64,000 nucleotides of DNA. Source: Flavobacterium swingsii (GTDB taxonomy: Bacteria > Bacteroidota > Bacteroidia > Flavobacteriales > Flavobacteriaceae). The DNA lies in NCBI RefSeq assembly GCF_900111965.1, contig NZ_FOJT01000002.1, positions 62,001-126,000 on the forward strand, written 5' to 3'. Under the pieces are notes generated by a model that searched no databases, had not been told where the DNA came from, and saw nothing but the letters and a program-made list of their open reading frames with translations. Both the position numbers and the translations under genes were made by a program. This document shows, in pieces, positions 12,966 through 60,636 of the stretch; position 1 is the stretch's first letter; every line of letters begins with the position of its first letter.

Positions 12966-13076
12966 TTAGGAGCTATTTCCTGCTTTACGTTGCAATCTGT
13001 CATTGCGAGGAACGAAGCAATCTCATTCGGGATTAAAATTCGCAATTACAGGATTTCCACTGCAATCAGGGCTAGG
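12966..13076 (-). repeat. variable-stem repeat, copy 1 (with nested repeat)
   Basis: On the minus strand it opens TAGCCCTGAT and closes GCAGGAAATAGCTCC, the flanks shared with copies at 22116, 38904 and 60463. The central hairpin arms read CTGTAATTGCGA and TCGCAATGACAG on the minus strand, with one mismatch. The enlarged apical part holds a GTCATTGCGAGGAACGAAGC unit related to the palindrome at 61846-61919. It lies between folE and cysS. Confidence 0.85.
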
Positions 13077-13102
13077 ACATTTCGTTATTAATGAACTTTA
13101 TT

Positions 13103-20863: not shown

Positions 20864-21664
20864 ATGAAAATCCCTGAAAACTACATAGAAACCAATAAAC
20901 AAACTTGGAACAACAAAACGGATATCCATATTGCTTCCGATTTTTATAATAATGAAGCGTTCTTAAGCGGAAAATCTTCATTAATGGATATCGAATTGAA
21001 TCTTTTGGGAGATATTTCAGGGAAGAAGATATTGCATTTACAATGCCATTTCGGACAAGATACATTATCCTTAGCCCGTTTAGGAGCAAAAGTAACAGGT
21101 GTCGATTTATCTGATAATGCCATCAATAAAGGAAAGGAACTGAATCAAAAAATTGGTCTTGATGCCGAATTTATCTGTTGTAATGTTTATGATTTAGAAA
21201 ATCATCTTGATGAAAAATTTGATATTGTTTTTACCAGTTACGGGACAATTGGTTGGTTGCCAGATTTAGACAAATGGGCTAAAGTAGTATCTAATTTCTT
21301 AAAACCTGGCGGCCAATTTATTTTTGCCGAATTTCATCCCGTAGTTTGGATGTATGACGATAATTTCAAGAATGTTTTTTATAGTTATTTTAATATTAAG
21401 CCTATCATTGAATATGAAGAAGGAACATATGCAAACAGAGATGCTGATGTTAAAACCAGCTCTGTTTGCTGGAATCATTCTACTAGTGAAGTGTTGAATT
21501 CCTTAATTAAATCAGGATTAGAAATCAATTCTTTCGATGAATACGATTATTCTCCTTATAATTGCTTTAATGAAACCGAAGAATTCGAAAAAGGTAAATT
21601 CAGAATCAAACATTTAGAAAATAAAATTCCAATGGTTTTTTCATTGGTTGCAACCAAAAAATAA
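20864..21664 (+). CDS. class I SAM-dependent methyltransferase
   Basis: 266 residues with a Rossmann-like methyltransferase core: motif I KILHLQCHFGQDTLSLARLG, GVDLSD at the end of strand two, then FDIVFTSYGTIGWLPDLDKW and FLKPGGQFIFAEFHPV. The cytosolic enzyme resembles small-molecule or UbiE-like methyltransferases; its substrate is unknown. It sits tightly between the acetyltransferase (three-base gap) and the DUF1569 gene (four-base gap), which suggests one operon. Confidence 0.92.
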   Translation: MKIPENYIETNKQTWNNKTDIHIASDFYNNEAFLSGKSSLMDIELNLLGDISGKKILHLQCHFGQDTLSLARLGAKVTGVDLSDNAINKGKELNQKIGLDAEFICCNVYDLENHLDEKFDIVFTSYGTIGWLPDLDKWAKVVSNFLKPGGQFIFAEFHPVVWMYDDNFKNVFYSYFNIKPIIEYEEGTYANRDADVKTSSVCWNHSTSEVLNSLIKSGLEINSFDEYDYSPYNCFNETEEFEKGKFRIKHLENKIPMVFSLVATKK

Positions 21665-21668
21665 ATTT

Positions 21669-22118
21669 ATGCCAAGTATTTACAACACATTCGACAATCA
21701 AAACTTAATTGAAAGAATCGAAAAACTAACCGCAGATGCACAACCAAATTGGGGGAAAATGAGTGTCGACCAAATGTTGTCGCATTGTCAAGCTCCTATT
21801 GATGTTGCTTTTGGAGATTTGAAACTCAAATCTAATTTTCTTTTTTTGCTTTTAGGCAAAATGATTAAAGGTAAAATGCTAAAAGCCAAATATTTTGGAA
21901 AAAACAGTCCAACGGCTAAGGATTTTATCAGAACGGGACACTATGATTTTGAACAAACCAAAGCTGATTTAATTAAAAAAGTAAAAACTTTTGCTGCTGA
22001 AGGAACAAATTCCATCAAAGTGCACAAACATCCTTTTTTCGGAAATATGACTACCGAAGAATGGGATAATTTACAATGGAAACACTTAAATCACCATTTG
22101 TATCAATTTGGGGTTTAG
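21669..22118 (+). CDS. DUF1569 (DinB-like) protein
   Basis: 149 residues resembling DUF1569, a four-helix DinB-like family: WGKMSVDQMLSHCQAPIDVA with a candidate metal-binding His, and EEWDNLQWKHLNHHLYQFGV with further His at the C-terminus. I start at MPSIYNTFD (21669), four bases after the upstream stop, rather than at 21648 inside the previous gene. The stop TAG (22116-22118) is itself the first bases of repeat copy 2. Function unknown; DinB relatives are metal-dependent thiol enzymes. Confidence 0.88.
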   Translation: MPSIYNTFDNQNLIERIEKLTADAQPNWGKMSVDQMLSHCQAPIDVAFGDLKLKSNFLFLLLGKMIKGKMLKAKYFGKNSPTAKDFIRTGHYDFEQTKADLIKKVKTFAAEGTNSIKVHKHPFFGNMTTEEWDNLQWKHLNHHLYQFGV

Positions 22119-22196
22119 CCCTGATGGAAGCGGCATCCTTTTTCTTGCTTCTTTAGCAAGGAAAAGATATAGCGGACAGCAGGAATAGCTCCTAAA
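22116..22196 (+). repeat. variable-stem repeat, copy 2
   Basis: Begins TAGCCCTGATGGAAG, overlapping the DUF1569 stop, and ends GACAGCAGGAATAGCTCC. The central 11-bp stem pairs TTTTTCTTGCT with AGCAAGGAAAA (one G-U). Same flanks as the copies at 12966, 38904 and 60463, with an unrelated stem sequence. Confidence 0.88.
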
Positions 22197-25382: not shown

Positions 25383-25452
25383 CACTTAGACCAACCTCTG
25401 GCGAAATCCGTGAATGTTGCTCTGATTTAAAACCATAATTAAAAAAATTATC
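25383..25452 (+). promoter_or_regulatory. candidate rplS 5' leader RNA
   Basis: About 70 bases of leader lie between the predicted transcription start and the ATG, longer than for most genes here and richer in G and C at 25388-25428. Short complementary segments CAAC and GTTG, with an inner GG and CC, could form a stem. As far as I recall, an L19 leader motif has been reported for flavobacteria; autogenous control by L19 would fit, but the fold is not proven here. Confidence 0.4.
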
Positions 25453-36206: not shown

Positions 36207-38840
36207 TTACTTCAATCCGGCCAAACTTTGCTCAATTGTAGCAATTTTTGACAAAGCATCGGCTTCTTTTTTGCGTTCCATTTCTAATACTTTTTCTGGA
36301 GCACCAGCAACGAATTTCTCGTTAGATAGTTTTCCTTGTACCGATTTTAAGAAACCTTTCGTATAATTTAACTCTTCCGTTAATTTTAATATTTCAGCTT
36401 CTAAATCGATATTTCCTGTAATTGGAATAAAATATTCGTTCGATTTTACTCGGTACGATAAAGCACCATCGACCTTTTCAGAAACATATTCTAATGAAGT
36501 GATATTCCCTAATTTAGTTACCACCGAATCAAAATAAGTAGAAGCTTTATCATTGTTTACAATTCTAAGTTCAATCGTATCTTTAAACGGAATATTTTTG
36601 TCTTTTCTGATGGTTCTAATACCAGAAATTACTTCGATTGTATTATCAAAATCAGAAATTAAACTTTCGTTAAAAGATTTCATTTCTGGCCAAGTCGAAA
36701 CTATTAATGCTTCTTCTGGTGTTCTTTCTGCAATGGTTTGCCAAATTTCTTCTGTTAAGAATGGCATAAACGGATGCAATAATTTCAAATTATTTTCTAG
36801 CATTTCAATCGCTTTTGCGAAAGTTACGCTGTCAATAGGTTGTTGGTATGCTGGTTTTATCATTTCTAGAAACCAAGAACAAAAATCGTCCCAAACCAAT
36901 TTGTAAATCGCCATTAATGCATCGGAAATTCTGTATTTTTCGAAATCATCTTCAATAGCCAATAAAGTTTGTTGCAATTTAGCTTCATACCATTCTATCG
37001 CCACTTTACTTGATTCTGGTTGTGGAATAGTTTCAGAAACTTCCCAGCCTTTTATTAGTTTGAAAGCATTCCAGATTTTGTTTGTAAATCCTTTTCCTTG
37101 ATTGCACAATTCCTCATCGAACATGATATCGTTTCCTGCCGAAGCACTCAAAAGCAATCCTACACGAACTCCATCGGCACCAAATTTTTTGATTAATTCT
37201 AACGGTTCTGGTGAGTTTCCTAGTGATTTAGACATCTTACGACGTTGACTGTCACGAACCAATCCTGTAAAATACACATTAGTAAACGGTTTTTCGCCTG
37301 TATATTCGTAACCTGCAATAATCATTCTGGCAACCCAGAAAAATAAAATATCTGGACCGGTAACTAAATCATTCGTTGGATAATAATATTTGAAATCTTC
37401 GTTTTCAGGATCCATAATTCCTCCAAAAACAGCCATTGGCCATAACCATGAAGAAAACCAAGTATCTAAAGCGTCAGCATCTTGACGTAAGTCAGAAGCT
37501 TGAAGATTTGAGTTTGAAGTTCTTTGTTGTGCCAATTTAACAGCGTCATCTATATTTTCGGCAACTACGAAATCTTCTTTTCCGTCACCGTAGAAATAAG
37601 CAGGAATTTGTTGTCCCCACCATAATTGACGAGAAATATTCCAATCGCGAATATTTTCTAACCAATGGCGATAAGTATTGTTAAAACGGGAAGGATATAA
37701 TTTTACTTCTTCAGTTTCTAAAACGGCTTTGATGGCTGGTTTTACTAAATCTTCCATACGTAAAAACCATTGGTCAGACAAACGAGGTTCGATAACCGCT
37801 TTTGTTCTTTCAGATGTTCCTACGTTATTGATGTGTGTTTCTATTTTAGAAATTGCTCCTAAAGTTTCTAATTCTTTCGATATTTCTTCACGAACTACAA
37901 AACGATCTTTTCCTTGATAATGTAATCCAAAACTATTTAAAGAAGCATCTTCGTTGAAAATATCAATAATTTCTAAGTTATGTTTTTCTCCTAATGTTTT
38001 GTCATTCATATCGTGAGCTGGCGTCACTTTTAGGCAACCAGTTCCGAATTCTAAATCGACATATTCGTCTTCAATAATAGGAATTATTCTTCCAGAAATT
38101 GGAATAATAGCGCTTTTACCTTTTAGATTTGTATGACGTTCGTCGTTTGGATTAATACAAATGGCAGTATCTCCAAAAATCGTTTCAGGACGTGTTGTAG
38201 CAACGGTTAAGTAATCTTCACTTCCTTCGATTCTGTATTTAATATAGTATAATTTCCCTTGACGTTCTTCGAAAATTACTTCTTCGTCAGATAGTGTTGT
38301 TTTTGCTTCAGGATCCCAGTTTACCATACGGTTACCACGATATATTTGTCCTTTGTTATATAAATCTACAAAGGAACGAATTACAGAAGCTGACATGTCA
38401 GGATCCATAGTAAACTTGGTTCTGTCCCAATCACATGAGCAACCTAGTTGTTTGAGTTGTTCAAGGATTGTTCCTCCATATTTGTCGGTCCATTCCCATG
38501 CGTGTTTTAGGAATTCTTCACGAGTTAAATCGTTTTTGTTGATTCCTTCCGCTTTTAGTTTAGCCACAACTTTTGCTTCTGTAGCGATAGAAGCATGGTC
38601 TGTTCCAGGAACCCAACAAGCATTGAATCCTTTTAGTCTGGCACGACGAATGAGTACATCTTGTAACGTATTGTTTAGCATGTGTCCCATATGGAGAACT
38701 CCTGTCACGTTTGGTGGAGGAATTACTATGGTATATGGCGTACGATGGTCTGGTTTAGAATGAAAATAATTATTTTTCATCCAATAGTCGTACCATTTTT
38801 GTTCGGTTTCTTTGGCGTTGAATTGTGCTGGAATTGTCAT
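36207..38840 (-). CDS. valS: valyl-tRNA synthetase
   Basis: 877 residues, class I synthetase for tRNA-Val. The HIGH motif appears as HMGHM in PPNVTGVLHMGHML, followed by an editing (CP1) domain (TTRPETIFGDTAI, GTGCLKVTPAHDMND) that removes Thr-tRNA, the KMSKS motif in RRKMSKSLGNSPEP, and a C-terminal coiled coil (about 810-877) ending ATIEQSLAGLK. The start is ATG at 38840. Directly before it on the minus strand are four degenerate AATAACC octamers (38849-38880), and further upstream repeat copy 3. Confidence 0.98.
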   Translation of the reverse strand: MTIPAQFNAKETEQKWYDYWMKNNYFHSKPDHRTPYTIVIPPPNVTGVLHMGHMLNNTLQDVLIRRARLKGFNACWVPGTDHASIATEAKVVAKLKAEGINKNDLTREEFLKHAWEWTDKYGGTILEQLKQLGCSCDWDRTKFTMDPDMSASVIRSFVDLYNKGQIYRGNRMVNWDPEAKTTLSDEEVIFEERQGKLYYIKYRIEGSEDYLTVATTRPETIFGDTAICINPNDERHTNLKGKSAIIPISGRIIPIIEDEYVDLEFGTGCLKVTPAHDMNDKTLGEKHNLEIIDIFNEDASLNSFGLHYQGKDRFVVREEISKELETLGAISKIETHINNVGTSERTKAVIEPRLSDQWFLRMEDLVKPAIKAVLETEEVKLYPSRFNNTYRHWLENIRDWNISRQLWWGQQIPAYFYGDGKEDFVVAENIDDAVKLAQQRTSNSNLQASDLRQDADALDTWFSSWLWPMAVFGGIMDPENEDFKYYYPTNDLVTGPDILFFWVARMIIAGYEYTGEKPFTNVYFTGLVRDSQRRKMSKSLGNSPEPLELIKKFGADGVRVGLLLSASAGNDIMFDEELCNQGKGFTNKIWNAFKLIKGWEVSETIPQPESSKVAIEWYEAKLQQTLLAIEDDFEKYRISDALMAIYKLVWDDFCSWFLEMIKPAYQQPIDSVTFAKAIEMLENNLKLLHPFMPFLTEEIWQTIAERTPEEALIVSTWPEMKSFNESLISDFDNTIEVISGIRTIRKDKNIPFKDTIELRIVNNDKASTYFDSVVTKLGNITSLEYVSEKVDGALSYRVKSNEYFIPITGNIDLEAEILKLTEELNYTKGFLKSVQGKLSNEKFVAGAPEKVLEMERKKEADALSKIATIEQSLAGLK

Positions 38841-38880: not shown

Positions 38881-38903
38881 GTTTAGAACGACTAACTTGT
38901 GTT

Positions 38904-38976
38904 TAGCCCTGATGGAAGAGGAAATCCTTGTTTCGTTTTTTAACGAGACAAGATTGCAACGTACAGCAGGAATAAT
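38904..38976 (+). repeat. variable-stem repeat, copy 3
   Basis: Opens TAGCCCTGATGGAAGAGGAA and keeps CAGCAGGAATA near its end, but lacks the final GCTCC seen in the other copies. The central 11-bp stem pairs CTTGTTTCGTT with AACGAGACAAG (one G-U). Lies in the valS/DUF1573 spacer on the strand opposite to valS. Confidence 0.85.
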
Positions 38977-39144
38977 GTTGGTTAAAAAAGTGAATGTTCT
39001 GCTCCTGAAAAAAGAAAAAGAACTTTGGTACACTTTTTGTAATTATATGCAAAAGTAGGTAAACTGATTAAATATAAAAAGAGTGTTAAAACATTTGTAT
39101 GTTTACCGAAACAAATCTATTTTTACTAATAAATTGAAATTGAA

Positions 39145-39579
39145 ATGAAAAAATTTTTTACTCTTATAGCAATTGCTGCTTTTGGTTTTGCATCTCAGGC
39201 ACAAAGCGGTGCTAAAATTGAGTTTTCGGCCAAGGATAATACTATTGATTATGGTACTGTGTCTAAAAATAGTGATAGTGGGCTTAGAACTTTTGAGTTT
39301 ACAAATACTGGTAACGAGCCACTAATTATTAAAGATGTGAAATCGTCTTGTGGCTGTACGGTTCCTACAAAACCTACTGAGCCAATTTTGCCAGGAAAAA
39401 CAGGAAAAATTGATGTAAAATATAACATGAATCCTGGTCCTATTAGAAAAACTATTACTGTAGAATCGAACGCGATAAACTATGAAGGGGGTATGGTTCC
39501 GCTGAAAATAAAAGGAACGGTAATTGTTCCAGAAGAAGTAAATATGATGGAAAAGAAAAAATCGTTACCTAGTAATTAA
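39145..39579 (+). CDS. DUF1573 secreted protein
   Basis: 144 residues: signal peptide about 1-19 (FASQAQ), then a DUF1573 Ig-like (ASPM/MSP-type) domain: FEFTNTGNEPLIIKDVKSSC, GCTVPTKPTEPILPGKTGKI, and TITVESNAINYEGGMVPLKI. These occur in many Bacteroidota as small periplasmic proteins of unknown role. The Cys-Gly-Cys in SSCGCT is a family mark. Single gene with a strong terminator shared with the convergent protease gene. Confidence 0.93.
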   Translation: MKKFFTLIAIAAFGFASQAQSGAKIEFSAKDNTIDYGTVSKNSDSGLRTFEFTNTGNEPLIIKDVKSSCGCTVPTKPTEPILPGKTGKIDVKYNMNPGPIRKTITVESNAINYEGGMVPLKIKGTVIVPEEVNMMEKKKSLPSN

Positions 39580-59783: not shown

Positions 59784-60461
59784 ATGAAAATAACTTTCTA
59801 CGGACACGCATCAATAGGAATTGAAGTTGCAGGAAAACACATTTTGGTCGATCCATACATTTCCGCCAACCCGAAAGCCAGTCATATTGATATACATTCG
59901 CTCAAAGCCGATTATATTCTGCTTACGCACGCCCACAACGACCATATTCTCGATGTCGAAGCTATTGCCAAACGCACCAATGCAGTCATAGTTTCCAATC
60001 ACGAAATAGCAACACATTTTGGTAACAAAGGATTTCAATTTCACCCCATGAATCTCGGCGGAAGTTGGGATTTCAATTTTGGAAACGTAAAATATGTCAA
60101 TGCCATTCACACCAGTTCGTTTCCCGACGGCAGTTACGGCGGCAATCCAGGCGGATTTGTCATCGAAGGCGAACACAAAAACATATACATTGCTGGCGAT
60201 ACCGCACTCACGATGGATATGAAACTAATCCCAATGCGCACCAAACTTGACCTCGCGATTCTTCCCATAGGAGATAATTTCACGATGGATGTCGATGATG
60301 CCATTATCGCTTCCGACTTTGTAGATTGCGACAAAATTCTCGGCTACCATTACGATACCTTCGGATATATCGAAATAAACCACGACGAAGCCAAAAATAA
60401 ATTTTTCGACGCAGGAAAGGATCTCATGTTACTAGAAATAGGAGACAGTATCGACTTATAA
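59784..60461 (+). CDS. metal-dependent hydrolase, UPF0173 (MBL fold)
   Basis: 225 residues, the UPF0173 family of metallo-beta-lactamase-fold enzymes. Metal motif THAHNDH, further ligands in VNAIHTSSFPDGSY, IYIAGDTALTMDM, and the closing LGYHYDTFGYIEI. The substrate is not known; it is often beside men genes in flavobacteria. G+C is visibly higher than in its neighbours, especially from 59860 to 60380. It is followed by repeat copy 4. Confidence 0.94.
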   Translation: MKITFYGHASIGIEVAGKHILVDPYISANPKASHIDIHSLKADYILLTHAHNDHILDVEAIAKRTNAVIVSNHEIATHFGNKGFQFHPMNLGGSWDFNFGNVKYVNAIHTSSFPDGSYGGNPGGFVIEGEHKNIYIAGDTALTMDMKLIPMRTKLDLAILPIGDNFTMDVDDAIIASDFVDCDKILGYHYDTFGYIEINHDEAKNKFFDAGKDLMLLEIGDSIDL

Positions 60462-60462
60462 T

Positions 60463-60546
60463 TTAGGAGCTATTTCCTGCTATCCGTTACAATCTTTTGC
60501 TTTTTAAAGAAAAAAGCAAAAGGATTTCCACTACTATCAGGGCTAG
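60463..60546 (-). repeat. variable-stem repeat, copy 4
   Basis: On the minus strand opens CTAGCCCTGATAGTAG and closes GCAGGAAATAGCTCCTAAA. Its central stem, TTTTGCTTTTT with AAAAAGCAAAA, is a perfect 11 bp. It lies between two plus-strand genes, antisense to them, right after the UPF0173 stop. Confidence 0.88.
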
Positions 60547-60636
60547 GGAATTCCACTCAAAACCAACCTTTGTGAACTTCGTGAACTTTGTGGTTAAACT
60601 GGCACCTAAATTGCTACAACAAACAAAAGAAAAACA

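Follow-up and report, generated by a model that had tools for sequence, protein, structure and literature searches.

BOX elements of Streptococcus pneumoniae have a modular boxA-boxB-boxC structure, the middle part of which varies by repeat number. In Nostoc, small dispersed repeats and STRR sequences are palindromic modules of small size that nest within further repeats and also occur in RNase P RNA, where they occupy hairpins. REP, BIME and REPIN elements are short high-copy palindromes whose families share a foot and differ in stem and loop, with GT pairs being allowed, as described in the sections of PMC3733652 on their structure. The Flavo-1 motif (Rfam RF01705) was named in a table of PMC2864571 and is catalogued as a small RNA gene. 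In PMC9029176 Flavo-1 figures among the abundant families and has no function assigned, PMC12306157 does no more than tabulate two Flavobacterium genomes, and the passages of PMC9723704 on the motif give no consistent relation to transcripts.

Here we analysed Flavo-1 copies in a 64-kb stretch of Flavobacterium swingsii DNA (64,000 nucleotides, hereafter the window) and at orthologous sites of related genomes. Like BOX elements, the copies have constant ends and a variable middle, a likeness of layout, but the Flavo-1 middle varies by replacement. They share with the Nostoc repeats small palindromic modules in other repeats and RNase P RNA hairpins, whereas a single conserved platform carries most of the Flavo-1 modules, which vary between genomes at the same site. 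Flavo-1 resembles REP sequences in being a short high-copy palindrome with families that keep the foot and vary in stem or loop, and in allowing GT pairs; in contrast to them it has no conserved GTAG/CGTC tag, its host has no Y1/RAYT gene and its base is longer, with an internal-loop ladder. The copies match the catalogued motif, but what we describe behaves, unlike an sRNA gene, as a modular dispersed repeat: its tips are exchangeable, palindromes are nested within it, and alternative outer modules occur (GCGTTAGGG..CCC..TAACGC).

Flavo-1 copies in the window, the host genome and the genus

A sequence-only reading of the window had noted four dispersed copies of an element with constant flanks around a central inverted repeat, possibly overlapping Flavo-1. 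The flanks are present at all four loci, and the Rfam comparison assigned every copy to RF01705 (66.8–83.2 bits, gathering score 42) over the full model 1-76 (Table 1); a search of the 64-kb window with the Rfam model found no other Flavo-1 match at the gathering threshold. The central arms pair in three copies, CTTTTTCTTGC with GCAAGGAAAAG in copy 2 and CTTGTTTCGTT with AACGAGACAAG in copy 3 (one T-G included in each) and CTTTTGCTTTTT (60494-60505) with AAAAAGCAAAAG (60511-60522) in copy 4. The centre of copy 1 is longer, and a neighbouring ORF call runs into this copy; its word GTCATTGCGAG occurred once within Flavo-1 matches and was absent outside them in 527 kb of the host genome. That the centres 'differ entirely' was slightly overstated: most open on a T-tract, and families of recurring centres exist. 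No T-run directly follows the hairpin on either strand of the four copies, as it would in an intrinsic terminator, and none has the GTAG or CGTC tetranucleotide of the REP superfamily at its foot. The window also contains an L19-Flavobacteria ribosomal protein leader (RF03130, 44.2 bits) at 25392-25419 (+).

Table 1. Flavo-1 copies in the window and their parts
Feature	Position	Strand	Basis
Flavo-1 copy 1, enlarged centre	12972-13077	-	RF01705, 66.8 bits
Second, imperfect palindrome GTCATTGCGAGGAACGAAGCAATCTC inside the centre of copy 1	12999-13024		sequence
Flavo-1 copy 2; shares bases at its left end with the stop codon of ORF 21648-22118	22113-22190	+	RF01705, 78.3 bits
Flavo-1 copy 3; flanked by divergent ORFs 36207-38840 (-) and 39145-39579 (+)	38901-38977	+	RF01705, 74.5 bits
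Flavo-1 copy 4; 7 nt downstream of the stop of ORF 59784-60461 (+)	60469-60548	-	RF01705, 83.2 bits
Apical hairpin (tip module) of copy 4	60494-60522	-	sequence; RNA and DNA folds

The host genome (G000, 2.57 Mb) contained 113 Flavo-1 matches, 100 of them over the cut-off, with 64 on the minus and 49 on the plus strand of their contigs. The earlier suggestions of Flavo-1 and of a REP/MITE-like dispersed repeat, as opposed to a simple terminator, were upheld. Copy numbers in 24 other Flavobacterium genomes ranged from 0 to at least 88, high counts being lower bounds since 89 candidates per genome were scored. Outside the genus, Flavo-1 was found in representatives of 3 of the 15 other families sampled in the order. 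A strict-pattern scan of named genomes gave at least 119 matches; among the 80 listed, 69 were titled Flavobacterium and the remainder were from other Bacteroidota (for example, Soonwooa and Polaribacter) and from one record titled as a Bifidobacterium breve MAG (L389), which is probably mislabelled or a contaminated bin. Viral contigs gave no exact match to the strict pattern. The majority of the assemblies are drafts, with several copies close to contig ends; in the host, two identical Flavo-1-like copies at contig ends (C6:317119-317209 and C8:449485-449575) probably represent an assembly-breaking repeat.

Architecture and base pairing

The layout of all 113 host copies leads from outer pairs (CCYG or CCAG) through two 2-bp helices to an apical hairpin, with a mostly T-rich foot. 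The two helices are separated by symmetric GNA/GNA 3x3 internal loops, and a minority of copies have a different second loop of the GGC/AUA type. Pairs were counted in the 67 of 113 copies that a regular expression took in, which missed O2 and nested copies. One helix covaried between GT/AC (32 copies), AC/GT (12) and GC/GC (9), and the other was TA/TA (33), TG/CA (16), TT/AA (15) or CA/TG (3). At the left end, GCGTTAGGG can stand in place of TAGCCC, in which case the partner is CCC..TAACGC, and the right end has either a short form (GGAAATAGCTCC) or a long form bearing a small hairpin of its own. Read by eye, the element also contains extra palindromes, most of them apical or in an internal loop. 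In two close relatives of one another (G055 and G063), several loci (for example, L238:9778-9829) hold mini Flavo-1 forms of 51-53 nt with a very short apical stem. Four host copies (C10:435534-435677, C8:311719-311860, C7:165085-165215 and C7:378946-379081) have a long branched centre with a common inner motif, GAGCGAC..GAAGCTCC or GGAGCTCC, which could be a separate element.

Across 144 distinct elements, Watson-Crick pairing held for 96.4% of the five variable pairs of the base, compared with 58.5% when partners were shuffled (500 shuffles, maximum 63.1%); the corresponding values for the 67 parsed host copies were 93.7% and, with shuffled partners, 55.1% (maximum 61.5% of 500). Each variable position was occupied by two to four Watson-Crick pair types. 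Stem conservation also exceeded chance in further copies, the first 8 stem pairs being 91.5% Watson-Crick in 62 host copies compared with 65.5% when shuffled.

Several signs distinguish the two strands. GT exceeded AC at paired positions of the motif strand (13:2 in the core and 31:9 in unique centres), an excess whose significance is overstated because the modules share ancestry and recruitment by covariance model or motif pattern may favour GU. The purine GNA loops also belong to the motif strand. Minimum-energy RNA folding of this strand gave the ladder in copies 2 and 4 and not in copies 1 and 3. The opposite strand of copy 2 formed a ladder too, of lower stability (z -2.53 for the motif strand vs -0.95), and in copy 4 the z-scores were -1.82 and -1.81, respectively. 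DNA folding did not clearly separate the strands. With moderate strength, these data suggest that the folding strand is the Rfam motif strand, as RNA or single-stranded DNA.

Tip replacement at orthologous sites

A two-flank search with 315 elements resulted in 76 pairs of copies at 32 sites, of which 68 pairs could be parsed and 8 could not. The centre was replaced in 43 parsed pairs, similar in 18 and identical in 7, the pairs being non-independent (a single site supplies ten loci), and replacement was present at 18 of the 32 sites. At the ten-locus site there were six or seven different centres, depending on parsing. At least one pattern-scan locus, whose core is fixed by the pattern by design, was included in 52 of the 76 pairs; the 24 pairs without such loci comprised 10 replaced, 4 similar, 3 identical and 7 unparsed. 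Among the replaced pairs, 38 had centres of sufficient length; in these, pairing at stem positions 5-9 was 92% between own arms and 39% between crossed arms. A greedy-centre parse (46 replaced, 22 similar and 8 identical; 21 of 32 sites) was dropped as it mis-cut centres, with own-arm pairing of 0.39.

The close pair G055/G063 was compared over stretches holding 30 of 36 and 23 of 32 copies, respectively; alignments at 18 sites were read by eye, with 87-100% identity in the matched flank pieces. Flavo-1 was present in both genomes at 17 sites, at which the centre was replaced in 6, the apex inverted in 1 and the centre kept in 10, one of these last with a 24-nt insert in an outer arm; at the 18th site G063 has an unrelated long hairpin. 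In the first of these locus pairs (L228/L260), the 61 nt before and the 174 nt after the replaced part are identical. Tips were also replaced at two sites in a second clade (G006/G015), where the flanks are more diverged, and within G006 a tip swap was seen between segments 92% identical over 733 bp; at a site shared by G006 and G008 the tip was unchanged. The replaced unit is the apical hairpin, sometimes together with the base helices. The base of Flavo-1 is conserved while its hairpin tip is often replaced as one self-complementary unit at fixed sites. At the four sites of the window itself such swaps are not demonstrable, because the listed matches of a 7 kb window piece among 386 scored genus genomes are 70-82% identical.

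One tip, CTCGTT..AACGAG, occurred in 30 distinct 8+8 nt contexts with both strands counted, corresponding to roughly half as many places. A donor search found near-identical inner copies elsewhere over the full length for 3 of 14 alleles, all of them short (27-28 nt), and matches over at least 75% of the length for 3 more; in the part of those genomes' copies that was searched, a full-length donor was not found for 11 of the 14.

These replacements bear on how the covariation is read. Kept pairing in centres of different sequence had been taken as the mark of selection on structure. That view is only half correct: both arms were swapped together in 43 of the 68 parsed site pairs, so that the covariation of the arms is no independent evidence of stepwise compensation, but a folding strand does show in the GNA/GNA loops of one strand and in the 44 GT vs 11 AC at paired positions. 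The 'covarying stem' owes much to whole-tip exchange, stepwise compensation not being its sole source. The earlier observation of the element is confirmed, and its interpretation is supported in part. What is new here is the replacement of the tip as a unit at the same sites of related genomes; no report of tip exchange was found in the part of the literature on Flavo-1, flavobacterial palindromes and RNase P repeats that was covered, and novelty is to that extent unproven.

Tip sequences outside Flavo-1 and in RNase P RNA

Most of the tip words tested were largely confined to Flavo-1 in 527 kb of the host genome. Exceptions included the CCTGACAGG palindrome, with three occurrences, and the GTCTCGTT..AACGAGA hairpin, with two, of which one is inside RNase P RNA. 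We compared Flavo-1 inner sequences with 59 P3 and P19-like tips of RNase P RNA. These tips came from 31 of the 60 genomes of the genus in which RNase P RNA was matched. Stretches of at least 14 nt were common to 4 of the 59 tips (control mean 0.5, maximum 4 of 200), of at least 13 nt to 5 (control mean 0.86, maximum 4) and of at least 12 nt to 8 (control mean 2.06, maximum 6). These overlaps, modestly above control, suggest that RNase P RNA in this genus bears Flavo-1-like tips on its hairpins. At L078:9088-9423 (-), an RNase P RNA adjoins a Flavo-1 copy, and its P3 and 3'-terminal (P19-like) tips have GTCTCGT-type palindromes. G063 has two RNase P RNA matches (C158:749-1061 and C73:1897-2232) vs one in 59 others, which 3% contamination could explain.

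Gene context and alternative explanations

In the host, 103 of the 113 copies are situated between ORF calls; 8, window copy 1 among them, fall within such a call, and 2 are at the edge of a contig. Where the neighbouring genes are co-directional, the motif was antisense in 58 cases and sense in 12 (58:13 with the first ORF caller), and a further 21 copies lay between divergent and 12 between convergent genes. This antisense bias belongs to the host genome or to certain clades. It is the chief argument for a 3'-UTR element that acts on the stability or termination of the preceding gene's mRNA, like E. coli REP; another is that, in the host, 23 of 33 distances are at most 20 nt where the right end of O1-short copies faces a gene 3' end. 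We nevertheless consider such a role unlikely. The mRNA would bear the strand whose loops are pyrimidine (UNC/CNU) and which has A-C mismatches, the window copies have no terminator-like T-run, and the bias is not general in the genus: antisense:sense counts were 7:9 and 4:9 in two sets, yet 9:1, 4:0 and 4:0 in the overlapping G192, G055 and G063 sets, with 28 antisense and 19 sense in all across other genomes (overlapping loci). A general gene-orientation rule, strong in the host and not general in the other genomes sampled, was therefore rejected. An independently made sRNA (Rfam type 'Gene; sRNA') under stepwise compensatory selection would account for the covarying Watson-Crick pairs, for the excess of GT over AC on the motif strand and for the ladder with GNA loops into which that strand folds in copies 2 and 4. 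It would not lead one to expect wholesale replacement of centres at the same sites, a copy number ranging from 0 to at least 89 inside one genus, or the sense, antisense and, in many cases, extra-transcript positions of the matches in the pertinent passages of PMC9723704. The 'independent RNA' reading gained no support in this analysis and strikes us as highly improbable.

Movement by a single-strand transposase (Y1/RAYT or IS200/IS605-like), as for a REP or MITE, would fit a strand-specific hairpin, a conserved foot and dispersed intergenic copies in variable number. The check proposed from the sequence alone, a search for a REP-type TnpA gene, found none in the host: Y1_Tnp (PF01797) had 0 matches in this genome, rated 100% complete, while 5 of 14 controls matched. 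In two single-contig genomes, with the origin assumed at coordinate 0, one side held 27 of 46 and 26 of 59 copies, respectively, so that no bias with respect to replication was apparent. A conserved GTAG/CGTC tag is also lacking, both from the foot of the four window copies and from the first loop, which is GNA and reads GTA in just 20 of 67 parsed copies. Such a transposase thus seems an improbable agent. That the swaps are assembly chimeras, short reads having been joined via an ~80 nt repeat, is suggested by the draft-assembly copies at contig ends, but an element of this size with unique flank should fit within usual reads or read pairs. Moreover, G361 and G078 have the same tip at the same site (L184 and L185), and single-contig G361 differs from G015 in its tip at another site (L189 and L039), so that we regard chimerism as very improbable indeed.

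Possible mechanism and significance of tip exchange

We favour, with a probability of about 0.55, the reading that Flavo-1 is a REP-like dispersed intergenic hairpin repeat with exchangeable tips spread by hairpin-provoked repair, and not a dedicated sRNA gene. Extruded hairpins would stall or break at replication and might then be repaired from another copy or hairpin via short shared arms; such ectopic conversion or template switching would spread tips between copies. Ectopic repair between copies is the exchange mechanism that we favour with moderate confidence. Shared arms of ~10-20 nt are short for RecA-type recombination, which counts against this route. No clean empty site, as would display a target-site duplication, was present among the G055/G063 sites compared, and two candidates were confounded, one by an extra ORF and the other by a 3.4 kb indel with the element in the opposite orientation. 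One G063 region considered as an empty site was rejected owing to a continuous match across the element. The 3.4 kb indel adjoins an orthologous site (L240:6140-9700 vs L248:1030-1170) at which two close genomes have Flavo-1 in opposite orientations.

The hairpin nuclease SbcCD removes hairpins in E. coli, according to the relevant part of PMC3733652, and a weaker possibility is that hairpins persist in the genus partly for want of SbcD. SbcD (TIGR00619) had no match in the host genome at E 0.001, whereas 13 of 14 control genomes matched, 8 above the cut-off. In a set of 25 genus genomes, SbcD exceeded the cut-off in five, which held 0, 0, 1, 15 and 66 copies; the 20 remaining, 7 of which had weak sub-cut-off matches, held 4 to at least 89 (Mann-Whitney p 0.02, a statistic that ignores phylogeny). 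Outside the genus the relation was reversed: SbcD exceeded the cut-off for 2 of 3 carrier families and for 0 of 12 non-carriers. The link between SbcD absence and copy number is a lead only. A wider and more tentative reading, which we think possible without expecting it and which the reversed SbcD relation outside the genus makes slightly less likely, is that tips form a shared pool of self-complementary cassettes. These would move as hairpins among suitable stems (Flavo-1 bases, other repeats and P3/P19 of RNase P RNA) by a structure-directed process tolerated without the hairpin nuclease, and RNA covariation in such genomes could then come from cassette exchange and not from compensatory mutation.

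Flavo-1 has so far been an Rfam entry without function, which a transcriptome study could not place in its account of the motif (PMC9723704). Should tips be exchanged as units, the covariation that usually serves as proof of a functional RNA could arise in part from module exchange at the DNA level. If this is true, other orphan 'structured RNA' families in repeat-rich genomes would merit re-testing at orthologous sites, and Flavo-1 would be a natural system for the turnover of hairpin DNA in bacteria.
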